The translations under genes were made by a program, and so were the position numbers. A model generated the notes under the pieces. It was not told the origin of the DNA, did no database searches, and saw nothing but the letters and a program-made list of their open reading frames with translations. A stretch of DNA of 64,000 bases. It comes from Coniochaeta sp. PMI_546. Lineage: Eukaryota > Ascomycota > Sordariomycetes > Coniochaetales > Coniochaetaceae. Location: positions 1,674,001-1,738,000 of the forward strand of contig MU271147.1 of assembly GCA_021432605.1 (NCBI GenBank), read 5' to 3'. Positions 7,628 through 37,368 of this stretch are shown one piece after another (position 1 is the stretch's first letter; the number at the start of each line of letters is the position of its first letter).

Positions 7628-8500
7628 ATGAAGCTCTCCATCCCCCGAGCTTCAACTCTCACAGCCGTGCGCCATGCCGCCTGCGCCTGCACCTCCGGCC
7701 TCACCCCGGCGGCAGCAATCCGGACCTTCTCCGTTCTCAACCGCCCACCACCAAACTACCCCGGCCACGTCCCTCTCACAGGCGTCGAGCGAGCAGCCCT
7801 AGCCATCGGCTCAGGTCTAATATCCTTCTTCAACCCCCGCCGCGCAGACACAATCGCCGCCTTTGCCGAAGTAACGGCAACACCGTACTTCATCTACCGT
7901 CTCCGCGACGCCATGCTCGCGAATCCCACGGGCAGACAGATACTCCGCGACCGGCCACGCATGACCAGCACATCCCTGAACCTGGAGCATCTCCGGTCCC
8001 TACCAGCCAACACTCTAGGAAGGACGTACGTCGAGTGGTTGGACAGGGAGCACGTCACCCCGGACACGCGCAGTGCGGTGCGGTTCGTGGAGGACCCCGA
8101 ATGCGCGTATGTGTTGCAGCGGTACCGGGAATCTCACGACTTCTACCACGCCCTCACAGGGCTGCCTACCGTGCGGGAGGGGGAGGTTGCGCTCAAGGCG
8201 TTCGAGTTTGCGAATACGCTGCTACCTATGACGGGGCTCAGTGTCTTTGCCGCCGCGACGCTGAAGCCGAACGAGAGGAAGAGGTTCTTGTCCATCTACC
8301 TGCCGTGGGCGGTCAGGAACGGTCTCCGGTCAGAGGAGGTTATCAATGTCTACTGGGAGAAGGAGATGGAGACTGATGTGCGTGAGCTAAGGGCGCGGTT
8401 GGGCGTCGAGCCGCCGCCAGACCTCAGGGAGATCAGGAAGCGGGAGAGGGAGGAGAGGAAGAGGAGGAAGGAAGCTGAGATGGGCAGGCAAGCTATCTGA
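7628..8500 (+). CDS. COQ4: Ubiquinone biosynthesis protein COQ4
   Basis: A single exon encodes 290 aa. The first ~35 residues are Arg/Ser/Ala-rich without acids, as expected of a mitochondrial presequence. The body is typical COQ4: FEDPECAYV-like [27 protein letters not shown], shown here in parts, includes the zinc-ligand motif HDxxHx11E (H170, D171, H174, E186). COQ4 sits on the matrix face of the inner mitochondrial membrane, organises the CoQ synthome and is needed for coenzyme Q synthesis. The C-terminus is a charged Arg/Glu-rich helix (about residues 262-285), longer than in yeast. The ATG follows a CCACTCACC leader and no intron is needed. Confidence 0.96.
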
Positions 8501-21129: not shown

Positions 21130-23737
21130 TGTTCGAGCTGGATTTGAAGCGCTGTTCTATGCAACGGTGTGATGTGCGACGGTCGCAGAAGTTGCGGCGG
21201 TGCAAGGGAAAGTCGGGCAAGTGGAAGAAGATTTGGCGGCGAGGAGATAGTGTGGTGGTGGTAACGTGGAGAGAGGCTTGTTGCAGCAGTTGAAGTACGT
21301 GGTTAAGGTAAGGTGAGGGTAGGTAGGTAGGAAGGTAAGGTAGCTCTTCTTTCTGCGGAATTTCTCGGTTTGGGAAAGGGAAGCGGAATTGCAGAGCAGT
21401 ACGGGCAGATCAGTAGACGGGACGTAGGGGCATGAAAGTCATGAAAGTCGGCTTGATGCTGGAAAGATGTTTTGCAAAGATCCGGAAAGGTCTGGTGCCG
21501 CAACGACGGGAAGATCGAGCTGTCTGGCGACGAGAAGTGGATACGGAGACCGGCGGTTGGAGGTTCAAGGTTACAAGTCGACGACTCGAGGTTGGGAATG
21601 GGCGGTTCAGGGAGTTGGACGGGGAGGGAGAAGAAAAGCACTGTGCTCGGCCATCGATTCGCTAGTGTTACCCCTAACTTTCGACCCCTGCTTGGTCCCC
21701 TTGCGCTTCGAGCTCGGAAGGAGGGGTCGAACTGTTCGAGGTCCCAGGTAGGGTGGCGGCCGCGAAACTCGGGACAAATCAACACAGTGCAGAAGCATAA
21801 GAGAAGATGATTCCAACGGTTGGCTCTCTACATACATACTATCATGTCACGACTTCATATGCACATTCCAAGCTAGAGAGTGGACCTGAATAACCTCAAA
21901 GCGAGAAAATCGTATCTCCTATCGTACTGAAGAATAAAACAAAAAATCCGATCTGGTCGAGATGGGTGATTTTAGACTTTCCGCCTGCTTCGGCCCGCAG
22001 CGATTGGATCCCACGTTTTTTTCACGATAGCACGGTGTAAAGGGAGGTAGAGGTAGAGGTCTCTCCAATGGCAACTGTATTATTGAATGACAACCCGAGT
22101 CTTCTTGATATACCCTATATGACGGGTTGTATAATTGATAGACTTTGACCATGTGGTTGTCTGAAACGGTTCTAGAACAGCCGGGAGCAGCAAGAAGGAA
22201 CAACACCTCACCAAGTGATGATTACCTTACACCGTAATCGCCAGCTTGTGGGGTGGTCTTCACTTGCATTTCGTATGAGGCACGGAATACCTTACCTGGT
22301 TGACTCAGGCAGTATACTTTTACAGTTCGCAACTTCAACGTGATATCTTCTTCTTGCCTAACATATACGGAGCTGGACGGTCAGTCTGGGCATGCATATG
22401 ACAGACCCGACATGTATCCAAGCGCACGCTTTTTGACGTTAGAAACGCAGGTACCTTGCCTGACCGTAGGTAAGGTCGGGTACATCAAGGGCAATTGCTC
22501 GTGGTCTCACCGAAAGGTGGGTTCAGAGACAGTCCCAATAAGAAACGGAACACAGCTCCACTACGAGGGAGAATGTTTGGTGCCACAGTGGAATGTCACT
22601 GCAGCTCGTTCCTTTCCATTCTAGTCGGCCTTGAATTTATATTGGCTCTTTTACACGTACCGAGACTTGGAAATTGAGCTTCCAGTAGCGAATGATTGGA
22701 TGGCAGACCTACCAGATTTTACTCGATTTTGTGGTGGCAATGAGGCAAAGGAGCTTTGACACCAAGGGAGGACTGGAAAAAAAAAAGCATGCCACATTCG
22801 AGGTTGAGTTCAGGCGCGACTTGATGCATGTCCTGTAACAGGGCCCCTCTTTTTGGAACACTCGACGAAGCTCTCCTGCATGCGCTTTCGGCGTGATGGT
22901 GGGTGACTGGGACAGTGCAGGACTGTTCAGTCTTGGCCAAGGCGGAAACACGGCTTTCTTGATTCGTCTGTTTCAATGTCAGAAAGGCTATCGATTCATG
23001 TCGTCTGGTCATAGACATTGGATGGTGCTCTAGCAGGTCCTACACGTAGTGATGACATGTATTTACCGTCCATTCAGCTAGCACATGAAGACGATTCGTT
23101 GCACTAGAGAAACACGTACAACTTTGTCCTCTTCGGGACTCGACAGTAGTAGTAGACAACTCTACGTACATAGAAAGTTGAAACATTGGCGGCGGACTCG
23201 GCTCTGAAACCGACCCGCACGCAGCCCTCCCTTACCACCATCGCAAGCATGATTACACCTTCTGGGTTCTGATGGACGAATGGAGACAGGCGAGGCAGAG
23301 GTCGTTGTACACGTACATGTGCAGCAGAGTTGATTGTTACTGATCCGTCAGTTGGATTGGACCTCATGAACCATCGTGCACTAGAGGTATCTCGAGATAG
23401 AGTCGAGAAGACTTCCAATTGAGCCTTTCAGGTCCAAAGACGCAGGAGGGTCCCGCAGTTGGTCCCTGCACCCCGCATTACAGTGGAGACAGTCTATCAG
23501 CTCAACTTCGGTTGAGCAATGAGGCTGAACGCGCTGAAGACGCGTCTCAACTTCACGACTCCCAATTAATCATCACGACTACGCCACGCGCCTGCAACCG
23601 CAGTTGTGACATCTGCAAATACTCGCACTCGATTGATAGTCGACATGTTGGGCTCACAAGACTCTGCCCTCTTAATCAAATCCTCAGTCTCAACGACGGC
23701 CATTTCTATCAACGACATCTCACTCCAATCTGCCAAC
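21130..23737. promoter_or_regulatory. Long divergent intergenic (RAC1 / CENP-T)
   Basis: 2.6 kb between two divergent starts. It contains a purine-rich GGTA/GGTAGG tract at about 21302-21343, just upstream of the RAC1 leader, and scattered short frames without family features (for example 21303..21785 minus). No further gene was identified; it probably holds promoters and 5' leaders. Confidence 0.4.
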
Positions 23738-25362
23738 ATGGCAGAGAGCACAACCCCCTCCGGACCTGGTCCCCAAACCACAACCCCCCGCCAGATAACA
23801 ATCACAACTCCTTCCCGCCGCGCCTACAGCGCCGATCCGCCCACTACTCTCCGGCGCTCCCTCCGCACACCGGGCAGCACCACGCGTTTCGGCCTCTCCG
23901 CCTCCGGCCGCAAGGCCAACAACCCCCCCACAGCCACGACCCCTCACGGCCGCGCCGCCATCCGCGCATTGGATTCTCGGAGAGCCGCGATCTTCACCCC
24001 CGGCCGACGACGCTCCCTCCGCGATCTGCAGCGCGAGACGCCTCGTGACCTCCTGCGCGCGCTGAGTCGGAACCTAGCCCCTAAGACGGAACCGGTGCAT
24101 ACTTCTTCTAGTCCCGGAGAGGGAAAGTCTGTTGCTAAGAGTGAGGGAGATGAGCCGGGCACGTTTCTGGATGTTGACGAGGAGGAGGAGGGCCCGTTAC
24201 GGGTGCCGCGGCTTAGTCTGCCTATCGATGAGGATGATGACGACGGGGATTGGCCTCGACCGCATCGGAGTGCGGGACTGGAAGACGAGAATCTTACGGT
24301 GCAGAGTGTAGAGTTCGGACGGAGGGATAGAGCGTTTAGCGAGCAACCTCGTCGACGGTCCAGTATGGCGGGGATGAGGATGAGTGATGTCTATGGACAG
24401 TTGGACGCGGGCGGTGGACTACGGGATGACGATGGGGACATCGAAGTCGATAACTTCCCACCGCTGCATGCTATTGATGAGGATCACGCTGCGGGGATGG
24501 CCATGGACGACACATATGAGAGGCTCGAGGTCGAGGCCGAGTTTGCGAGGAGGGGGACCGGAAGAGAAAGTGATTTTGGCCTCGTCGTGGCGGCACCTGA
24601 GGGGAACGATACTACAGTTGTTATCCTGCCTGAACTTGCAGACGAGGACGAGGAGCCGCCAGAACCAGATAATGAGCTGTTCCCCATGGAAGAGGAGTCG
24701 CATGTGCATTTTGCAGACGATGTGGTTGGCGGACAGGAGGAGGACGAGGAGCAGGATGGCGCTGAGTTGGACGACGAAGTTGATGCGGAGGCTGAGGAGT
24801 TCGCGATGGAAGTTGACTCGGCTACGGCGAAGAATGCTGCCGCAGCTGCCGCGAAACTACGGAAGAAGAAGAAAGTCGGCGCCAAGGTGTCCAAATACGG
24901 CATCCAGTATCCATCGCTACCGTCAGCGGTGGTGAAACGACTTGCGCAAACGTTCGCAAAGACCAGTGGCGTAAGGGGCAAGATCAGCTCAGACACGCTG
25001 GCCGCGATCACGCAGGCGTCGGAGTGGTTCTTTGAGCAGCTCGGCGATGATCTTCAGGCCTACGCGAAGCATGCGGGGAGAAAAACGATCGATGAGAGTG
25101 ATATCCTGCAGGTTATGAGGAGGTATGCTACATTTTGTACACTCTATGTCCGGGTATAAGTTCGGTGCCCCTGATATGGTACATGGCTGACCCGTTCTTG
25201 TGCAGACAGCGCCAAATCAACTCTTCCACCACGCCATTCTCTCTAGCTCAGCGATATCTGCCACGAGAGCTGCTGCAGGAGCTGCGCATGACCCCTCCGG
25301 CGCCGCTCAAGAAGAGCCGAGCGGCAGGATCTCGCGCCAATGATGACGAGGAAGTAACCTGA
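23738..25362 (+). CDS. CENP-T-like kinetochore protein (histone fold)
   Basis: Two exons, 23738..25122 and 25206..25362, give 513 aa; the 83-nt intron is in phase 2. The N-terminal ~100 residues are Ser/Thr/Arg/Pro-rich with SLRDLQRETPRDLLRALSR; a long acidic middle follows. The histone fold covers about 386-462 (YGIQYPSLPSAVVKRLAQTF, ISSDTLAAITQASEWFFEQL, IDESDILQVMRR). The C-terminal extension FSLAQRYLPRELLQELRM is diagnostic of CENP-T. CENP-T (Cnn1/Cnp20) pairs with CENP-W, binds centromeric DNA and recruits Ndc80 through its N-terminus. I chose the ATG in CCAACATGG context at 23738; an in-frame ATG at 23645 would add 31 residues. It converges on SHY1 with only 65 bp between stops. Confidence 0.92.
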
Positions 25363-25427: not shown

Positions 25428-26504
25428 CTACCACTGCTTATTCAGGCGCACGCGCCGAGTCACATCGGTTGGCGGCTTCTTGACCAAGATGTAGAACATT
25501 ATGGTTGTCGCCACAGCGAGGCCGTACCTAGGAATCATCAGCATGTCATGAGCATAGCAAGAGCTACCTATGACACAGGTCGCGCGTGAGAAGGAATGGG
25601 CTTACCAGGTGAAGATGTATTGCGCATGGTTGTTTCGCAGGTTGACCTCGGCCTGGCGACCTATTGGTATGCCCTTCTCCTGGTATTCATAGATCTTGAA
25701 CAAGTCGGGCTCTGCAACACGCAGTGTTAGCGGATTTAGCGTCCACAGGGAAGATAAGAATACCATACCCATAGTCTGCTCGACCCAAATAGGCTGACTC
25801 CCCGTCAAATGCGCCATCTGCGCAACGTCAGGGAAATAAAACTCCCCAATGTCGGGCCTGTTGTTGGGCGTAAACATATTCTTCTTCCACGGCTCCCTCA
25901 GCAGCCCCTCCACCGTGACAACACCATCGACCAGACTCTCCTTCCTATCCTTCTGCGCCCGCTTGCTCTTGGATATCCACCCCCGGTTGACCAGCACCGT
26001 CGTCCCCTCACCTTCCCTCTCCAACGGCGTGACGACCATGTACCCCTCCTCGCCGTCCCGCATGCGCGGCCCGATCAGCATCTCTTGGTCGTGCCTGAAC
26101 TTCCCCGTAGCCAGCACCCTCCTGTAATCGAAGTCTGGTATGGCGGCCGGGTCGACGCGCGGCGGTAGAGGCAGGGGAGGGGCGACCAGCCGGTCTTCAG
26201 ACTTGGCGATCAAGTCCGTCTTCCATTTTAGGCGCTGCACCTGCCACGTCCCCAGCGCGAAGGCGGTTACGGGGATGATGGCAAGGACTATGAGGCCGTA
26301 GCCGTGGCGGCGACCGGTGCGGATCAGCTCGGGAGGGTTGTCGAGGATGGAGGTGAAGGAGGGATCGTCGGCTGCTTGTTTAACTGGACGGTGGGGTGTG
26401 GAGGATATCGGGCGGCTTAATTGGGTGCTTGCGGTGTGTTTTGGGAAGCTGCTTGGTGAGATCCGCCGCGAACTTAGGCGGAGAACTCTGCTGAGTGTCT
26501 TCAT
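25428..26504 (-). CDS. SHY1: Surf1/Shy1, cytochrome c oxidase assembly factor
   Basis: Three exons (26504..25769, 25711..25606, 25527..25428) give 313 aa. The first ~45 residues are basic and Ser-rich, a mitochondrial presequence. TM1 lies around 69-86 and is followed by the SURF1 motif GTWQVQRLKWK; the intermembrane-space domain carries EGYMVVTPLE and VLVNRGWISK, and VEQTMEPDLF spans the first junction. The second TM at the C-terminus (YGLAVATTIMFYILV) completes the hairpin. Shy1 sits in the inner membrane and helps insert haem a into Cox1 and regulate Cox1 synthesis. The gene shares a 380-bp divergent promoter with the UBX gene. Confidence 0.95.
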
Positions 26505-35744: not shown

Positions 35745-37368
35745 ATGCCAGCCCAAACGGAGATCCCTGTTGTAAGTGACCAACTCCCTAGCCACCTGTA
35801 CGCTATACATTTGACTGACGAGGCTCTTGTGACAAGGCGGCCAATGTCCTTGGTGTAAGTGTCACTGCCGACACCCATGCGAGCTCCCGTGGGTGACATC
35901 TCACTAACTCTGTGCTCGCGCGCCCTGCTGCTAGACTATTGGCACAAGTGAGGAACCCCCCTTCCAAACCGTTGCACTTGGACTATGAGCTAACTCACGG
36001 CAGTGTAAGCGTGAACCTCCTGTTCCTGGCAGTTGTACGGCCTTTCACTAACGCTCGTCTCACCCGTTGAAGCCTCTGGTGTGTTCAAGTCAGTCAAAGC
36101 CCCCCTTTCCGCGGCCCAGCACACCACCAGGTATCAAGACTGACATTGTGGCCCCCCAGCTGCTGCCGCAAATATGGACAAACTGGCGGACCAAGAAGAC
36201 CGACGGCTTGCCGGCAATCATGATGTACATATGGGCGTTGTGTAAGTCTCCTACCCAGCCGGCGGCACAGGAAGTCGGAGAAGAGGGCGACTGACTTGAC
36301 TGCGGCTAGGCGGGGTACCGTTCGGGGTGTACGCCATTGTACAGAAGTTCAACATGCCTATCCAAGTGCAGCCCCAGTGCTTCATGGCTCTGTGTCTCAT
36401 TAGCTGGGCGCAGATCCTCCATTATGGCCAGTATGTTGCCTTCCCCCGCGGGTTACCAATCTTGATCTGGCTAGTCTGTTTGTGATGTGTACTGACCATC
36501 TCGAAGCAAATGGCCTGTCTGGAAAGCATGCGCAGCCGGCGTTGGCATGGCCTGCATCTTTGCCGGTGTGGAAGCGGCGCTGATACTCACTCTCACGGTA
36601 TGATACGGTCTTGCACACTCCACCCTCCCTTCGTTCCGTGCTGACACTGCGATCGAAGCCCATATATAACGATGGAAACGAGGCGCCCATCCTAGTCATC
36701 GGTATCGTGGCCGCCGTCCTTCTGGCAGTTGGGTTACTTCCTCCATACCGCGAAATATGGAAGCGGCATGGTCGGGTAATTGGCTTCAACTGGATCTTCC
36801 TCTCGATGGACTGGGGTGGCGCTTTCTTCTCGCTTATGGCGCTCGGTAAGCTGACCACAATATCTCAACCGCCGACCTTCAGACTAATTTCCGGTGATAC
36901 CAGTGGCCCAGAACACATTCGATGTCACTGGCGGCGTTCTGTACATCATATGGTAAAGCTCAACGAACATCTTGCTTTCTTTGCCATTCGGGGTGAGGCT
37001 AACAGGGACCCAACAGCTGCTTCCTCGAAGCCGGGATATTCGCGTCACACATAGTCTGGCGCATCCGGACGCGCAAGATCCGCAAGGCTGCCGCCGCCGA
37101 GGGTAAGACCTTTGACGACATCATGGCCGAGCACGAGGCGCGAGGGGAGCACTTCAAGTGGGCGGACAGGAAGTGGCGCAGGGGGAAGAAGAGCCGGAAG
37201 ACCGACGAGGAAACCGGGGACACAGAAGAGACTGTGTACGCCGAGGACACTGGGTACGCGACGGAGGACAAGCTCAACAGCGAGCCGGACTCGCCCGTTG
37301 CCATCGGGTTCCCGCCGGGGACTGCTGTGGAGCGGACTATCGATGGAAGGTTAGGTGGGGAGGAATAG
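35745..37368 (+). CDS. PQ-loop repeat membrane protein with extreme micro-exons
   Basis: Eleven exons give 318 aa: 35745..35771, 35837..35854, 35935..35947, 36004 (1 nt), 36073..36088, 36160..36241, 36310..36430, 36507..36597, 36659..36845, 36904..36952 and 37017..37368. Only this path keeps phase and yields the family N-terminus AANVLGTIGTILWCVQLLPQ and then IWTNWRTKKTDG. A second PQ-like motif, LLPPYREIWKRHG, is near 149-161. About seven hydrophobic segments are present (for example FGVYAIVQKF, IGIVAAVLLAVGLL, TGGVLYIICCFLEAGIF), then a long charged cytosolic tail. PQ-loop proteins include lysosomal/vacuolar cationic amino-acid and cystine exporters and MPC-like SWEET relatives; the substrate here is unknown. 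The introns are 53-86 nt with canonical ends. Confidence 0.85.

Follow-up and report, generated by a model that had tools for sequence, protein, structure and literature searches.

A probable single-nucleotide exon in a PQ-loop gene of Coniochaeta, apparently old and often misannotated in related fungi

Can a protein-coding gene of a filamentous fungus depend on an exon that is only one nucleotide long? This question is raised by a 64,000-nucleotide stretch of DNA (hereafter the window) from Coniochaeta sp. PMI_546 (assembly GCA_021432605.1, contig MU271147.1), whose genus is placed by taxonomy look-up in the Sordariomycetes, Coniochaetales. A sequence-only reading proposed that a PQ-loop gene in the window contains such an exon, consisting of the single T at position 36004. 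This proposal is well supported by enumeration of splice paths, by the genome-wide rarity of the surrounding motif and by the one-base gaps found in 7 of 150 homologous gene models. We conclude that T36004 is very probably a constitutive exon that supplies the middle base of an isoleucine codon (A|T|C).

The gene lies on the forward strand, from an ATG at 35745 to a stop codon ending at 37368, and has 11 exons. Its spliced reading frame, with T36004 included, is 957 nucleotides long and translates into 318 amino acids without an internal stop; all ten introns have GT-AG borders. Exon 1 (35745-35771, MPAQTEIPV) was placed by translation and homologous N-termini, and is followed by intron 1 (35772-35836, 65 nt, GTAAGT...AAG), exon 2 (35837-35854, AANVLG) and intron 2 (35855-35934, 80 nt, GTAAGT...TAG). 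Exon 3 (35935-35947, 13 nt) encodes TIGT plus the A that opens the isoleucine codon, and exon 5 (36073-36088, 16 nt) starts with the last base of that codon before encoding LWCVQ, which confirms from the sequence the exon phases given in the earlier reading. Between them lie intron 3 (35948-36003, 56 nt, GTGAGG...GCTAAC...CGGCAG), exon 4 (36004-36004) and intron 4 (36005-36072, 68 nt, GTAAGC...ACTAAC...TTGAAG). The two introns were assessed by splice-site scoring, and the single T by translation, scoring, shuffles, a motif scan and path enumeration. Intron 5 (36089-36159, 71 nt) is in phase 0 (Q|L) and leads into exon 6 (36160-36241), which encodes the first PQ motif (LLPQIWTNWR...) and was identified through its PF04193 match. 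Exons 7 (36310-36430), 8 (36507-36597), 9 (36659-36845), 10 (36904-36952) and 11 (37017-37368, stop codon included) rest on translation. The eight introns other than 3 and 4 are 58-80 nt long, a range with which lengths of 56 and 68 nt are consistent and a length of 125 nt is not. Seven of the same eight have G at donor position +5, the exception being the last intron (GTAAAG).

Membership of the protein in the PQ-loop family (PF04193) is well established, with a score of 75.5 bits against a curated cut-off of 22. The match of the 318-residue protein that includes T36004 spans profile positions 2-59 of 61, whereas the three published models from Coniochaeta reach 62.1, 56.9 and 58.8 bits, with matches that begin only at profile positions 12, 14 and 16. 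By family, the product is predicted to be a membrane transporter. A sequence search of solved structures gave no significant match (the top one was cystinosin, E 0.22). Among the matches listed, the nearest proteins are from Coniochaeta, namely C. sp. 2T2.1 (76 and 80% identity) and C. ligniaria (93% over 72% of the query). Elsewhere in the window, Pfam searches of neighbouring reading frames identified ordinary genes: Coq4 (7628-8497), a CENP-T histone fold (23606-25156) and WD40 repeats (83-1324) on the forward strand, and SURF1 (25605-26504) on the reverse strand.

The reading frame leaves little freedom at the isoleucine codon. If T36004 is omitted, the frame shifts and translation stops after 45 residues; if the exon is extended beyond the GTAAGC donor, it reads ATG TAA and stops at once. 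The frame shift and the immediate stop had both been noted in the earlier reading. Between codon bases A and C, only T yields Ile or Val. To the left of T36004 is a CTAAC at 35990-35994 TCACGGCAG and to its right is GTAAGC, with a second CTAAC at 36048-36052 upstream of the acceptor TTGAAG that ends at 36072. Exactly one base is needed between two introns for both the frame and the conserved protein, and each flanking intron has a donor, a branch site and an acceptor, of which CGGCAG is weak in the noisy self-trained set described below.

Taking all GT and GC donors and all AG acceptors from 35935 to 36088, we enumerated the paths of one to three introns at five minimum intron lengths from 25 to 45 nt; exons 1-2 were held fixed, as was the end of exon 5. 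This enumeration found no single GT/GC-AG intron linking exon 3 to exon 5. With introns of at least 35 nt, 12 GT/GC-AG paths remain open in frame, seven of which keep both TIGT and WCVQ and two of which keep the conserved spacing. When only GT donors are admitted at this minimum, four paths retain TIGT and WCVQ, and two of these contain one-nucleotide exons. At 45 nt, only two paths retain both motifs. The one-residue spacing of TIGT-x-LWCVQ is preserved by exactly two paths at each of the five minima, and both use a one-nucleotide exon, either T36004 (Ile) or C36010 (Thr). The claim that T36004 lies on the only canonical path is overstated: no single intron serves and the spacing is kept by one-nucleotide exons only, but other open paths exist and C36010 is a second one-base candidate.

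Splice sites were scored with a model self-trained on 170 introns, which we used for ranking only. Entry to the training set required G at donor position +5 and CTRA before the acceptor, and the set is noisy and contaminated, with GAG acceptors in 51 of its 170 introns. Three GC-donor introns from the path enumeration were left unscored. The acceptor before T36004 had been described as perfect, which overstates its quality: in this noisy set CGGCAG scores 2.5 (percentile 0.06), whereas its branch site (percentile 0.64) and the donor GTAAGC (0.71) rank as ordinary to good.

The arrangement of these sites is exceedingly rare. When the interval was dinucleotide-shuffled 20,000 times, with its first six and last three bases fixed, the ordered composite of branch site, YAG, one base, GTRAG and second branch site never appeared, and a bare internal AG-N-GT was present in 1,777. 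Across 308,407 bases, read on both strands, YAG-N-GTRAG occurs 28 times, and in only one case, that of T36004, does CTRAC stand 4-30 bases before the acceptor. The fuller pattern CTAAC N4-24 CAG N GTAAG N30-60 CTAAC has a single occurrence, again the T36004 site, in a scan of both strands of 33,477,513 bases (24 contigs); the reverse strand has none, and a reversed-pattern control gave 0 and 0. Since the composite was defined after the site had been seen, these figures measure rarity and do not amount to a blind test.

Homologous gene models provide a separate view of the same codon. Our sample comprised 150 different proteins drawn from the best 120 of 489, 581 and 492 matches in three protein searches, and it favours close relatives because the best-ranked matches of each search were taken. 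The relatives are represented by protein gene models, and the flanking splice sites by this genome; scans of the available genome contigs and viral contigs found no homologue. Ninety-two of the models are in frame across the junction, seven have a one-base gap, four skip ten codons and 47 are truncated or otherwise different, which leaves 51 that are uninformative or skipping. Of the 92 in-frame models, 49 have I and 40 have V as the residue x of TIGT-x-[hydrophobic]-W; R, T and G are found there once each.

Exactly two bases are decoded at the isoleucine codon in the seven gap models, and none of the 150 models has one or zero bases there. In five of the seven, a wrong-frame peptide ahead of LWC[VI]Q back-translates to TIGT plus exactly two bases (P0001, Coniochaeta sp. 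2T2.1; P0085, Parathielavia hyrcaniae; P0089, Lasiosphaeria hispida; P0101, Podospora aff. communis; P0124, Thermothelomyces fergusii). In the other two (P0137, Sporothrix schenckii; P0138, Sporothrix epigloea), TIGT is in frame and is followed by two bases and then by the F/L-W-C sequence out of frame. All seven have A or G as the first decoded base, and a T between the two would therefore give Ile, Met or Val. Among 21,918 control windows elsewhere in the same proteins, two-base fits of the first and second kinds number 4 and 16, one-base fits 29 and 1, and zero-base fits 0 and 0. By taxonomy look-up of Coniochaeta, Parathielavia, Lasiosphaeria, Thermothelomyces, Sporothrix and Podospora, the gap models span Coniochaetales, Sordariales and Ophiostomatales. 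The published P0001 model also appears to read through the intron that matches intron 2 of the window gene, as the VSVTAD that follows its ILG is the peptide that intron 2 would encode if read through.

Many of the remaining models are damaged in other ways. The ten codons of exons 3-5, and no others, are skipped in P0002, P0054, P0109 and P0112. The last of these, from Niveomyces insectorum, is assigned by taxonomy to Hypocreales, yet its nearest homologues among the matches listed are from Sporothrix (Ophiostomatales), a possible case of taxonomic misplacement or of a misidentified genome. The 47 truncated or otherwise different models are broken without revealing how large the gap is. Among the 58 that are not in frame (the 51 and the seven with a gap), eight come from metagenome sources without a species name, 13 begin at the L-x-PQ boundary and 13 near MMFLW. 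Models that are marked partial and start at L-x-PQ just after exon 5 are P0041, P0042, P0055, P0059, P0072, P0077, P0099, P0104, P0108, P0111, P0123, P0125 and P0133, and because these thirteen begin there, the start of the protein is missing from the databases.

Intact junctions also occur. Neurospora crassa, two Sordaria species, Pseudoneurospora and Diplogelasinospora have in-frame models, as does Cercophora scortea, with Arg at the variable position; Diplogelasinospora and Cercophora scortea are Sordariales by taxonomy look-up. In these Sordariales, therefore, the structure differs, was lost or was solved in another way, and our guess is that one intron was lost. In-frame models also predominate in species that we take to be Xylariales or Diaporthales, although P0125 and P0149, for example, depart from this. 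Odd or broken junctions at or near the isoleucine codon are seen in P0143 (Stipitochalara), P0150 (Hyaloscypha), P0017 (Pleurostoma), P0149 (Durotheca) and P0126 (Zalerion, Lulworthiales by taxonomy look-up). P0017, with two residues at a place that is filled by one in 92 models, is counted among the 47, as are P0143, P0149 and P0150. Such junctions beyond the three orders may mean that the unusual exon structure is older still.

Given these observations, it is appropriate to ask whether another arrangement could explain the locus equally well. The sole other path that retains the spacing would take C36010 as the exon (36010-36010), between introns 35948-36009 (acceptor TGTAAG) and 36011-36072 (donor GTGAAC), and would place Thr at the codon. 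Its acceptor outscores CGGCAG (4.2 against 2.5), and Thr is found there in one in-frame homologue (Phyllachora maydis, P0079). However, Ile or Val occupies this position in 89 of the 92 in-frame homologues, and the summed score of the path is 26.0 against 33.4 for T36004 (all others reach at most 23.6, among paths with both introns scored). The shortfall is owing to GTGAAC, which at -2.5 falls under all 170 self-trained introns, a penalty that arises by construction because the set demanded G at +5; the last intron of the PQ-loop gene itself is likewise low (-1.9). Even so, G stands at +5 in seven of the gene's eight other donors, and we regard the C36010 path as quite improbable. Longer exons that add several residues, such as 35990-36002 (13 nt) or a path through 35971-36032, are very unlikely. 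Such GT-AG paths are among those left open by the enumeration at 35 nt, but they would require an intron of 42 nt that lacks a CTRAC branch site, or one of 38 nt, an exonic branch site or weak donors. They also break the spacing held by the in-frame homologues, against which the only other readable model is the two-residue P0017.

Two further explanations would dispense with the exon altogether. One missing base at a plain single-intron junction, through an assembly or sequencing error, would account for the phase gap in a single genome. However, gene models from seven other fungi, which belong to three orders, decode to the same gap, and the 125-nt interval holds a second branch site, acceptor and donor in a combination that is found only here in the genome. 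Because seven models have the one-base gap and four skip the ten codons, an old shared gap is favoured and an error, which we consider extremely improbable, is disfavoured. A non-canonical single intron or a stwintron (a nested intron splitting a splice site) is another highly improbable solution. Stwintrons are known in fungi, and with TG-AG or GT-AA borders the junction would be ACAAG|CCTC, which stays in frame, but this junction gives Ser, which none of the 92 in-frame homologues has. A stwintron of the [D1,2] type was rejected, since it needs a donor G before the internal intron and base 35947 is A; removal of all the bases also breaks the frame, and the locus falls outside that class.

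If T36004 is indeed an exon, its codon would lie in a hydrophobic segment just before the first PQ motif, probably in the first transmembrane helix. It would be flanked by ordinary U2-type introns of 56 and 68 nt, both short and both possessing a donor, a CTAAC branch site and an acceptor of their own. Each intron would be recognised by intron definition and, because the acceptor and donor are only one base apart, the two would be removed one after the other, as has been discussed for APC11 (PMC4674806). Skipping of the T would give the 45-residue product and presumably a message prone to decay. The homologous models suggest that the one-base gap is old and common to Coniochaetales, Sordariales and Ophiostomatales, and that gene callers unable to model it would have filled public databases with N-termini that are truncated or out of frame. 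On balance, though with considerably less assurance than we attach to the exon itself, we favour the view that the exon dates back to at least the common ancestor of the three orders, has disappeared from lineages that include Neurospora and Sordaria, and has, unnoticed, spoiled the annotation of one transporter family across dozens of fungal genomes.

The origin of the arrangement was examined within the same genome. A DNA search for a second copy of 35935-36100, as might indicate an introner-like origin, returned only the query itself, and no repeat family is common to introns 3 and 4 (seed 7, length at least 12). Around the branch site, introns 2 and 4 resemble each other over 22 nt (73%), a stretch that we take to be the branch motif. 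A PQ-loop paralogue (L010) on the minus strand of contig C13 (G000:C13:77000-84000, upstream of and including 80508-80639) has no one-nucleotide exon. Instead, it has an 18-nt exon (VCWSTQ) between two phase-0 introns. The upstream intron enters the matching codon at phase 0, whereas the window gene splits that codon at phases 1 and 2, so introns at three phases are found in two genes for one codon; another intron of the paralogue lies at the same Q|L boundary.

Fusarium is, like the organism studied here, a filamentous ascomycete. The earlier reading held that one-nucleotide exons were known from very few genes and that a fungal one would be a rare case, a view made out of date by a nuclear fungal example in Fusarium CYP621A (PMC12940212, February 2026) and one in plant VPS55 (PMC8831610). 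The CYP621A exon, presented by its authors as the first known from a fungal gene and backed by RNA reads, resembles T36004: it is the middle base of a conserved codon of a nuclear gene, it lies between short introns where a phase-one exon cannot join a phase-two exon, and many orthologues have it. In contrast, it is a G (AG-G-GT) in another gene of one genus, whereas the base here is a T (CAG-T-GTAAGC) known from sequence, with three orders implied.

Other precedents differ in further ways. Arabidopsis APC11 has a one-nucleotide exon (PMC4674806) that is constitutive, lies between two introns, is missing from annotations and is conserved in land plants, but it belongs to a plant gene and was studied with reporter constructs and RNA reads (PMC4674806, PMC8831610). 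Plant VPS55 is, like the gene described here, a membrane protein whose annotations lose N-terminal residues and a transmembrane helix when its one-nucleotide microexon is left unmodelled, although some plant species have forms both with and without the exon (PMC8831610). A one-nucleotide exon is also reported in placozoan mitochondrial cox1 (PMC5436844). The mitochondrial rnl of Ophiostoma and Ceratocystis is another fungal gene with such an exon, a lone A, but there it separates group II introns of an rRNA gene and is not spliceosomal (PMC12308204). Fungal stwintrons likewise involve two adjacent short introns removed successively; unlike the T36004 arrangement, they leave no exonic base in the message (PMC12403724). 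In the open-licence literature, we found no pairing of a PQ-loop gene with a single-nucleotide exon or micro-exon, and no further nuclear fungal one-nucleotide exon besides CYP621A among the matches listed.

Single-nucleotide exons as such are therefore not new, and the PQ-loop gene looks like the second nuclear fungal case in the open-licence literature. Its interest rests on the implied age of the exon and on the likely systematic misannotation that accompanies it. The gene models hint that a one-nucleotide exon can persist across fungal orders, and they indicate that public models of this PQ-loop family probably suffer from a systematic error by which the start of the protein is lost. Given its short introns and many sequenced relatives, we believe that this gene offers a tractable system for learning how the spliceosome handles an acceptor and a donor that are one base apart, and that it is equally suited to questions about the order of intron removal and about the origin and loss of one-nucleotide exons.
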